Shown: positions 1,252 through 5,242 of the stretch, one piece after another
Numbering within the stretch: the stretch's first letter is position 1
Layout: every line of letters begins with the position of its first letter
Virus record (IMG/VR): IMGVR_UViG_3300017917_004510
Coordinates: 1-34,029 of that record
Reading direction: 5' to 3' (one strand)
Source of the DNA: a virus
DNA: 34,029 bases
Notes under the pieces: model-generated
Database searches by the model: none
The model's input: only the letters and a program-made list of their open reading frames with translations
Told to the model about the DNA's origin: nothing
Made by a program: the position numbers and the translations under genes

Positions 1252-1328
1252 TAAATAAAAATATCATCGTATGAAGCGAAGCGAAACGAGGTTCGGACGG
1301 GGCTAGCATTATGCCCCCAGGTCCACCA

Positions 1329-1400
1329 TAAAACACATTGTTACAATAACAGGCAAAAGTCTTAAGCTTAAAGTTAAAACTAGATAGTGTGTTTTATAAT
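1329..1400 (+). other. Intervening segment of the permuted tmRNA precursor
   Basis: The segment between the CCA end and the first G of the coding piece begins and ends with a perfect 10-bp inverted repeat (ATAAAACACA 1328-1337 / TGTGTTTTAT 1388-1397). In the precursor this nearly continues the acceptor stem, with only AAT (1398-1400) unpaired. A small internal hairpin (TGTTA 1339-1343 / TAACA 1347-1351) is also present. By analogy with two-piece tmRNAs, this loop would be removed by tRNA-type processing enzymes to give separate acceptor and coding RNAs. Removal here is inferred. Confidence 0.75.
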
Positions 1401-1486
1401 GGGCCTGAACAGATTCGACGGATCTACTAGTAAATTAGCAGACGGTGCGTAAGGCGAAGGACGTAATCCTAGCAAACTAAATAGAC

Positions 1487-1531
1487 GCAAACGACGACTA
1501 TTTTTATCAGGACCTTAAGCTAGCTGCTTAA
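1487..1531 (+). other. tmRNA tag reading frame (14 residues)
   Basis: The resume codon is GCA at 1487 in the conserved context TAGACGCAAACGAC. The frame encodes ANDDYFYQDLKLAA and ends with TAA at 1529-1531. The AND start and the AA end match known proteolysis tags, and LAA is the ClpXP-recognised end of the E. coli tag. The end of the tag and its stop lie in a hairpin (CAGG 1508-1511 with CCTG 1533-1536; TTAAGC 1515-1520 with GCTTAA 1526-1531), as in helix 5 of bacterial tmRNA. Confidence 0.88.
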
Positions 1532-1546
1532 ACCTGAAGGGGTTTT

Positions 1547-1578
1547 GGTAGTTCTTCCTTTTTACCCAAAGAACTGCC
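1547..1578 (+). other. Hairpin at the 3' end of the tmRNA coding piece
   Basis: GGTAGTTCTT (1547-1556) pairs with AAGAACTGCC (1569-1578) over ten pairs with one G-U. No run of T follows, so it is more likely the 3' terminal helix or a processing boundary of the coding piece than a terminator. The ribosome binding site of the next gene (AAGGA, 1581-1585) starts 3 nt after it. The tmRNA and the oxygenase message may therefore come from one transcript. Confidence 0.6.
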
Positions 1579-1590
1579 TAAAGGATAATT

Positions 1591-3694: not shown

Positions 3695-4021
3695 ATGAAA
3701 ACACCTAAGATAAAAATGCCAACCATTGATATCGAAAAAATAAGTGATTTTTGTAGAACAAAGTTAACTGCTGCCACAGCAGAAACTATTGCCTGGATTG
3801 CTGTTATAGTTATCCACGCTGCTACTATTCCTACATTGTTAGCTGTTATGTCCGGCTTAACTGAAAAGATGCCGCCAATAGATTTAGTGTTATTTATTTG
3901 GGCTGGATTGTCTTTATTGTTTGTTAGAGCTACTATTCTAAAAGACATGTTAAATATTGTAACAATTGGATTTGGTTTTGTCATTCACGCTACTATTCTT
4001 GCACTAATTTTATTTAAATGA
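3695..4021 (+). CDS. Small three-segment membrane protein, holin candidate
   Basis: A protein of 108 residues from the ATG at 3695. A GTG in the same frame at 3683 overlaps the previous stop and looks less likely. It has a short charged N-terminus, then three hydrophobic segments around IAWIAVIVIHAATIPTLLAV, DLVLFIWAGLSLLFVRA and MLNIVTIGFGFVIHATILAL. Size, three membrane spans and position directly after an endolysin fit a class I holin, but no holin family motif is recognised. It overlaps the heme oxygenase start by an ATGA (4018-4021), so translation is probably coupled. Conserved membrane proteins of this kind occur in T4-like cyanophages without known function. Confidence 0.65.
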   Translation: MKTPKIKMPTIDIEKISDFCRTKLTAATAETIAWIAVIVIHAATIPTLLAVMSGLTEKMPPIDLVLFIWAGLSLLFVRATILKDMLNIVTIGFGFVIHATILALILFK

Positions 4022-4560
4022 CTACACTTAAAGAAGCAACTGCCGAAAAACATAAAATAGCTGAATCTTTACCCTTTATTCAATCTATTTTTAAGGGAGA
4101 GGTAGACAAGTACAAATATACAGATTATTTGTATCAGCTTCATTTTATTTACTATATTTTGGAAAGCCATGGATCCGAAGTAGGATTATTCGAAGGCATT
4201 GAGGATCTTAAAAGAGCCCCAAGAGTAAGAGCAGATTTTGTAGATTTAGCTTCAAAAAATTATAATCATTCTGCCCTGCCTGCCACTAACAACTATCTAA
4301 CATATCTAGATAACATTTTCTATGATGATATTGAAAACAGACGCCATCGTCTTATGGCGCACATCTATGTCAGACACATGGGAGATTTATTTGGAGGACA
4401 ACAATTAGCTAAATTGGTTCCGGGCAATGGCAATATGTATAAGTTTGAAAATCTCATTTCTTTAATTACTGAAATGAGAAAACGTATTGATATATCTATG
4501 GCAGTAGAAGCTAATATTGCATTTGATTTTAATATAGAAATTTTAAAAGCATATGGCTGA
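4018..4560 (+). CDS. ho: Heme oxygenase (biliverdin-forming)
   Basis: A 180-residue all-helical enzyme. Heme oxygenases open heme with O2 and reductant to give biliverdin IXalpha, Fe2+ and CO. The proximal heme ligand is H12 in LKEATAEKHKIAES, the usual N-terminal helix. The distal glycine motif is RHMGDLFGGQQLAK (119-132, compare YLGDLSGGQ). The protein is shorter than cyanobacterial Ho1 (about 240 residues) but keeps the full heme pocket and resembles short phage HemO forms. It overlaps the upstream membrane protein by ATGA and the downstream bilin reductase by eight nt, so heme opening and biliverdin reduction are translationally linked. Reductant is presumably host or phage ferredoxin; none is visible here. 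Iron release from heme during infection is a second possible benefit. Confidence 0.92.
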   Translation: MTTLKEATAEKHKIAESLPFIQSIFKGEVDKYKYTDYLYQLHFIYYILESHGSEVGLFEGIEDLKRAPRVRADFVDLASKNYNHSALPATNNYLTYLDNIFYDDIENRRHRLMAHIYVRHMGDLFGGQQLAKLVPGNGNMYKFENLISLITEMRKRIDISMAVEANIAFDFNIEILKAYG

Positions 4561-5242
4561 TATCTGGGATAAAGCAGAGGAATTAGCATCTTATACTTTA
4601 GGATCCTTGCTTCGAACATCTAGTTTTGTTCCTTATAATTTTGATCATACTCAATATGATTTTAATTGGGAAAACTATATTTTCAAAAGTGATAAATTTC
4701 GACGAGCACATGTCGAAGTAGTAGATGCTAGAGAAACTAAAAAGATATGGATAATGCATTTTTGTATCTTCCCTCACTATGATGATTCTTCACCTATATT
4801 TGGTTTTGATATTGTCTGCGGTAAAGATAAAATTACTGGAATGTTTCATGACTACTCTGTCTCTGGATCATCAAGACATTTTATGCTTGATAAATTTAAG
4901 GAAATATCAAGTACATATTATCCAAATAAGAAAAGAGAGTTACCAGAATGGGCTACTCAAATATTTTCAAACAGTATGATAGCAGCAGGCAATTTGGATA
5001 AAAATGAATTTGAGGTAGCATCCGAAGTATATTATAATACATTTAGATATTATTTAGCTAACGTTGGAATCACAAGAGATAAAAATAAAGATTATTCTAT
5101 ATCTCAAGATCGATATTGCTACTATCAAAAACAGAATCCTAGAACACCGCATATGATGCATAATTTGGGAGTGAACAAAAACTTATTTCAAGGATACATG
5201 GACAGTGTTTTATTTCCAGAAAGAAACGAACGAAATGGATGA
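4553..5242 (+). CDS. pcyX: Ferredoxin-dependent bilin reductase, PcyX/PebS-like
   Basis: A 229-residue member of the ferredoxin-dependent bilin reductase (HY2) family, radical enzymes reducing biliverdin without a cofactor. Diagnostic stretches are RRAHVEVVDARETKKIW, WIMHFCIFPHYDD, SPIFGFDIVCGKDKITG and QDRYCYYQKQNPRTPHMM. H69 and D86 line up with the central catalytic His88 and Asp105 of PcyA; D86 also corresponds to Asp105 of cyanophage PebS. The SQDRY region occupies the place of the second substrate-binding aspartate. The pairing with heme oxygenase and the short N-terminus suit PcyX, described from oceanic phage contigs as making phycoerythrobilin from biliverdin. The symbol is given on that resemblance; the product specificity is not provable by eye. 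The start overlaps the heme oxygenase stop (ATGGCTGA), and the end overlaps gp33 the same way. Confidence 0.88.
   Translation: MADIWDKAEELASYTLGSLLRTSSFVPYNFDHTQYDFNWENYIFKSDKFRRAHVEVVDARETKKIWIMHFCIFPHYDDSSPIFGFDIVCGKDKITGMFHDYSVSGSSRHFMLDKFKEISSTYYPNKKRELPEWATQIFSNSMIAAGNLDKNEFEVASEVYYNTFRYYLANVGITRDKNKDYSISQDRYCYYQKQNPRTPHMMHNLGVNKNLFQGYMDSVLFPERNERNG

Follow-up and report, generated by a model that had tools for sequence, protein, structure and literature searches.

The window analyzed here, a linear IMG/VR record of 34,029 bases from an aquatic T4-like phage, carries on its plus strand a complete circularly permuted tmRNA gene (1262-1578) which we read, with a probability of roughly 0.82, as a functional, phage-resident RNA that would depend on host factors and would fold with an A18-G55 elbow. 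Permuted tmRNAs of phages are already known, and on its own this gene is one more member of that set. What it adds concerns the elbow. Almost all tRNAs have the G18-Psi55 contact; in these tmRNAs A18-G55 has replaced it several times, both bases changing together, and has done so inside three T-loop classes. A tertiary contact of tmRNA can therefore be tested through single-base swaps.

Identification and Family Membership

The T4-like character of the phage is given by gp32, gp59, and gp6 (Pfam) and by a gp33-type late promoter regulator (PHROGs). When the whole window was searched, the covariance model RF04321 (tmRNA_permuted) matched positions 1265-1531 (+) end to end (model 1-213) with 93.7 bits and an E-value of 4.2e-17, about twice its cut-off of 47 bits. 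The gene is thus a member of this family, and the proposal of the sequence-only reading that a phage encodes a two-piece tmRNA, with the CCA-bearing half upstream of the 5′ half, is borne out. That reading had also suggested scoring the region with the models of individual bacterial clades, which proved less receptive than RF04321: alpha_tmRNA (RF01849) gave 41.5 bits against a cut-off of 50, beta_tmRNA (RF01850), the best of these three older models, gave 51.4 bits against a cut-off of 84, and cyano_tmRNA (RF01851, cut-off 70) gave no match in the window at E ≤ 0.001. ARAGORN did not detect the tmRNA in the window, presumably because of its atypical T-loop; some phage tmRNAs escape this standard finder.

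The same reading knew of no well-characterized permuted tmRNA in a phage, a statement overtaken by published and annotated cases. A study of 2022 classed 53 of its 133 unique phage tmRNAs as two-piece, 50 of the 53 being marine or aquatic; Methylophilales phage Melnitz (MZ577097) was the worked case, and 17 of 47 contigs of the Melnitz cluster carried a two-piece tmRNA (PMC9004378). Another publication deals with 79 phage tmRNA sequences (PMC11915505). Like the gene of the window, that of Melnitz is permuted, lies upstream of gp32 (at a distance of about 2.4 kb in Melnitz) and has a G55/A18 elbow, but its T-loop is GGCAGTA and it is associated with a glnA-type riboswitch (PMC9004378); no Rfam match to such a riboswitch was found in the window. 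Also comparable are the permuted tmRNAs of phages Mosig (EXVC030M; MT647606, annotated as SsrA in GenBank) and HTVC008M (KC465899), which score 93.6 and 90.6 bits with RF04321 and share the G55/A18 elbow, although they differ from the window in their 7-nt T-loops (TGCAACT and TGCAATA), their acceptor stems (CACCTCC) and their tags.

Anatomy of the Gene

The upstream acceptor piece (1262-1328, +), delimited by the RF04321 alignment and the sequence, holds the 3′ half of the tRNA-like domain, i.e., a P2 strand, the T-arm, the acceptor 3′ strand, and an encoded CCA. A GGAC motif (1295-1298) precedes the T-stem, formed by GGGGC (1299-1303) and GCCCC (1313-1317), which encloses the 9-nt T-loop TAGCATTAT (1304-1312); alignment to other loop classes places G55 at 1306 and C56 at 1307. 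The acceptor 3′ strand CAGGTCC (1318-1324) is followed by the discriminator A and CCA (ACCA, 1325-1328). Between this CCA and G1 lies an intervening segment of 72 nt (1329-1400), predicted from the known two-piece architecture to be removed.

The coding piece (1401-1578, +) comprises the acceptor 5′ strand, D-loop, P2 strand, PK1 region, tag frame, and 3′ hairpin, and is delimited by RF04321 up to 1531 and by the RF01850 alignment and the fold over the 3′ hairpin. Its acceptor half GGGCCTG (1401-1407) pairs with CAGGTCC at 7/7 positions, including the G3-U70 pair that the sequence-only reading had noticed, so that the alanine identity elements are present (G3 = G1403, U70 = U1322, A73 = A1325). 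The D-loop AACAGATT (1408-1415) contains A18 (1411) and G19 (1412), and a TTCGAC motif occupies 1414-1419. The resume codon GCA (1487-1489) stands in a UAGAC-GCA context and opens a frame (1487-1531) that encodes the 14-aa tag ANDDYFYQDLKLAA and ends with UAA (TAA, 1529-1531). Folding places the stop codon in a P5-like stem-loop (1507-1537; z-score −2.5 for 1496-1580) and predicts a 10-bp hairpin of GGTAGTTCTT and AAGAACTGCC (1547-1578) within the last element of the gene (1539-1578), which aligns with the last elements of RF01850. By eye, GGGT (1540-1543) and ACCC (1564-1567) could form a pseudoknot at the end of the gene. For the whole tmRNA region the fold z-score is −3.2.

Covariation of the Acceptor Stem

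Paired segments that fail to covary in related phages would have refuted the sequence-only reading; the acceptor pairs do covary. The relatives carry eight distinct acceptor stems in which 100% of the cells are paired and G3-U70 is invariant, in rows for most of which the script demanded pairing when choosing the 5′ half. Double-sided changes affect three of the seven pairs. The covariation score is 0.592, compared with 0.110 after shuffling (0/500 shuffles reach 0.592), and it collapses once the partner strand is slid. Because of the pairing demanded by the script, the covariance-model matches are cleaner evidence than the rows that it picked, and the RF04321 matches that it missed also show 7/7 pairs.

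The T-Loop and the 18/55 Elbow Coupling

The 9-nt T-loop is real: the identical TAGCATTAT recurs in independent assemblies (L091, L100, L114, L158, L469, and L491), and a sequencing error was rejected as its origin. The canonical 7-nt loop UUCRANY is absent from the window tmRNA; it is no requirement of the tmRNA family, since sampled tmRNAs of the alphaproteobacterial type lack it too. The alphaproteobacterial two-piece tmRNA (RF01849; Caulobacter, SAR11) is permuted and combines G55 with A18 like that of the window, but has mostly a 7-nt GGCRGTA loop and a G53-C61 closing pair. As for the betaproteobacterial two-piece tmRNA (RF01850), the window match runs through the 3′ hairpin, whereas the consensus loop UUCGAUU and the UGG in the D-loop are unlike the window. 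A pattern search for the class C-TA[T/G]C[A/G]T(N)AT-G found it in 59 IMG/VR stretches, in permuted as well as one-piece tmRNAs, and in 0/793 sampled bacterial genomes, all from two phyla (398 Pseudomonadota and 395 Bacteroidota). This 8-9 nt class sets the window gene apart as a variant within RF04321. One-piece phage tmRNAs with the TATCGTAT T-loop class were also seen (L455, L460, L478, and others), with GGGGATG…TCGAC about 320-500 nt upstream.

To call the loop atypical, as had been done from its 9 nt, is right as far as length goes and incomplete otherwise, for the key base of the loop changes in concert with the D-loop. With loops aligned on C56 to number position 55, this position is U or G and D-loop position 18 matches it, as U55/G18 or G55/A18, in 140 of 143 phage sequences (86 + 54). 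Of the three exceptions, a 1-nt insertion in the D-loop would account for two (L380 and L431), and the third (L136) has a 6-nt loop. After de-duplication the table is [[46,1],[2,56]], on which a Fisher test ignores relatedness. The rule is kept within the TNCRA, GGCR, and 8-9 nt classes, the last with 14 U55/G18 and 11 G55/A18. On a gp32 tree of 28 phages, position 55 needs five changes, at least three of them forced by supported branches, and position 18 is in the matching state in 28/28. C56 occurs together with G19 in 209/213 sequences. D-loop/T-loop contacts at the elbow of these tmRNAs are therefore indicated, indirectly, by the 18/55 covariation together with C56/G19.

The G55/A18 pair was rejected as a phage invention: it is also the alphaproteobacterial form. 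Bacterial sequences selected only for G55 have A18 in 69/70 cases, and the best 30 permuted tmRNAs from a sample of 120 Pseudomonadota genomes, with neither base preselected, are all G55/A18 (30/30). For Caulobacter and for the mitochondrial tmRNA of Reclinomonas, G in place of U in the T-loop was pointed out in 2005 (PMC1168896); a literature search that did not include key papers of 2000 and 2004 found no report of a D-loop partner for G55.

The minimal TruB substrate is 53-GUUYRANYC-61 (PMC7912444), which the window T-loop does not fit. The elbow would instead be closed by A18-G55 and G19-C56 in place of G18-Psi55, the U55 targeted by host TruB being missing. It may follow that independence from host T-loop modification is a gain for the phage. 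This could be of no special importance, because alphaproteobacterial tmRNAs also lack U55. A bolder version, which we consider tentative and rather unlikely, holds that the 8-9 nt C-TA[T/G]C[A/G]T(N)AT-G loop is a phage-own elbow type, absent from bacterial ssrA and present in one- and two-piece phage tmRNAs alike, that passes as a module, together with a promoter-like leader, from one phage to another unrelated one. On this view the elbow would fold with no need for the host to modify the T-loop, and phage ribosome rescue would be independent of the RNA-modifying state of the host.

Genomic Slot and Mosaicism

In the clade of the window phage the order of genes is PD-(D/E)XK nuclease, tmRNA, a variable set, gp33, gp59, and gp32, and Mosig has its tmRNA in the same PD-(D/E)XK - tmRNA - gp33 - gp59 slot. 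The variable set between tmRNA and gp33 includes a peroxiredoxin, an outer-membrane-like protein, a SleB hydrolase, a heme oxygenase, and a bilin reductase. Among contigs of gp32 relatives, RF04321 matches 30/48 at E ≤ 0.001, 27/48 above the cut-off, mostly in this one syntenic slot. Capture from a host with permuted tmRNA, as first supposed, is consequently not favored as a recent event: the slot is shared across the clade and with Mosig, and the alpha, beta, and cyanobacterial models fare as described above. The gene is long established in the phage lineage, with losses or moves; in L016 and L019 it is absent from the usual slot.

The sequence of the gene itself is a mosaic exchanged among phages. 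L091, L114, and L158 share with the window an identical stretch of 79 nt (1250-1328), joined in each to a different coding piece, with the tags ANDSQFRMVA, ANDSVYALAA, and ANDDYYSQDLKLAA, respectively. In the flanks retrieved for L091 and L114, no neighbor gene of the window is present except a peroxiredoxin (66%), 6.5 kb off, in L114. Conversely, the exact tag of the window is found beside another T-loop in L182. Tag and elbow thus evolve separately in phage tmRNAs. A blastn search of phage records with the tmRNA itself returned nothing useful.

Such traffic could also be that of a passenger or decaying gene, spread by recombination and without a role, and both the identical block on different coding pieces and the absence of the gene from the usual slot in L016 and L019 would suit it. 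Covarying stem and elbow, an intact frame and persistence of the gene across the clade argue against a roleless gene, and we regard it as highly improbable.

Directly upstream of the acceptor piece, AATAAATA (1250-1257, +) is a possible T4-type late promoter, conserved in L091, L114, and L158. The motif also lies 12 and 16 nt ahead of two baseplate-region genes, and its count over the window is not above chance, being below the shuffle mean. A late promoter at this position is therefore suggestive only.

Proposed Function

From the anatomy, covariation, synteny, and tag recurrence read in the sequences, we infer that the tmRNA is probably a working one with a variant elbow, expressed, processed, charged, and used in ribosome rescue to the benefit of the phage. 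A single precursor would be transcribed and its 72-nt intervening segment cut out by host tRNA-processing nucleases, with P2 and the 7-bp acceptor stem holding the two mature pieces together. The G3-U70/ACCA end would be charged by host AlaRS, and host SmpB would bring the charged tmRNA to ribosomes stalled on broken mRNA. Translation would resume at GCA, (A)ANDDYFYQDLKLAA would be added to the product, and the LAA end would direct the tagged product to ClpXP-type proteolysis. Ribosomes could in this way stay available while infection destroys host mRNA.

An SmpB gene was found in 0/16 phage records, four of which were isolate phage records searched in full. Function of the phage tmRNA would therefore depend on the host, whose SmpB is presumably used. 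The same result would agree with an antagonist of host trans-translation that titrates SmpB or AlaRS and blocks host ribosome rescue, along the lines proposed for mycobacteriophage DS6A. The DS6A molecule is, like that of the window, a phage-encoded tmRNA relative, but consists of the tRNA-like domain (TLD) only, has no tag frame, and is not permuted (PMC4131195), and TLD-only molecules of this kind inhibit tmRNA (PMC4131195; PMC11915505). A decoy would need neither tag frame nor resume-codon region, stop codon, or 3′ structures, all of which the window gene has kept, along with a tag that recurs with synonymous changes. Antagonism is for these reasons improbable.

Tags and Other Phage tmRNAs

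Because automatic extraction picked a wrong frame in many SAR11 and some phage genes, tag statistics rely only on tags read by eye or matched as exact peptides. The tag of the window recurs in L182, L013, L027, and L031, in some with synonymous differences, and variants of it occur in L007, L008, L018, and L158. Among close phage relatives, tags vary widely and some end in LVA, MVA, or LAV; such variation, together with tags of about 26-31 aa elsewhere, might mean that ribosome rescue is coupled to an altered fate of the product (stability or another protease), sparing or redirecting phage proteins. For the window, whose tag ends in LAA, an ordinary ClpXP-type end, this is quite improbable, and rescue followed by ordinary proteolysis is the reading we keep.

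The long tags belong to a separate family of phage tmRNAs (L100:8560-8670, L362, L406, and about 68 contigs among L528-L596). They are basic and conserved (A[NK][AT][NS]TGEVTVSGK[NG]VKFSAR[TS]…), a conservation that is not an unbiased estimate, since some of the residues were already specified in the search pattern, and they end mostly in LAV, FAV, or similar, not LAA. The long tag had no match in phage isolate records or Pfam; it resembles an extended cyanobacterial tag. Three further contigs (L222, L225, and L223) carry permuted phage tmRNAs whose acceptor strand (CATCTCCATTC, CATCTCCAAGA) is not followed by an encoded CCA and whose intervening segment is very short.

Neighboring Genes

A peroxiredoxin gene (AhpC-TSA, 607-1251) lies directly upstream of the tmRNA and is 91-96% identical in L007 and L158. 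Further downstream, 4018-5242 encodes a heme oxygenase and, after it, a ferredoxin-dependent bilin reductase. These two genes had raised the idea of capture from cyanobacteria, which is not supported, given the missing RF01851 match and the bilin reductase itself, whose closest isolate relative is in Pelagibacter phage Mosig (36%), cyanophage types reaching 27-30%. The 205-aa protein encoded at 1591-2208 has no Pfam match and falls in a PHROGs family named ferrochelatase; the spacing of its HKD…H residues looks like that of an iron/2-oxoglutarate oxygenase.
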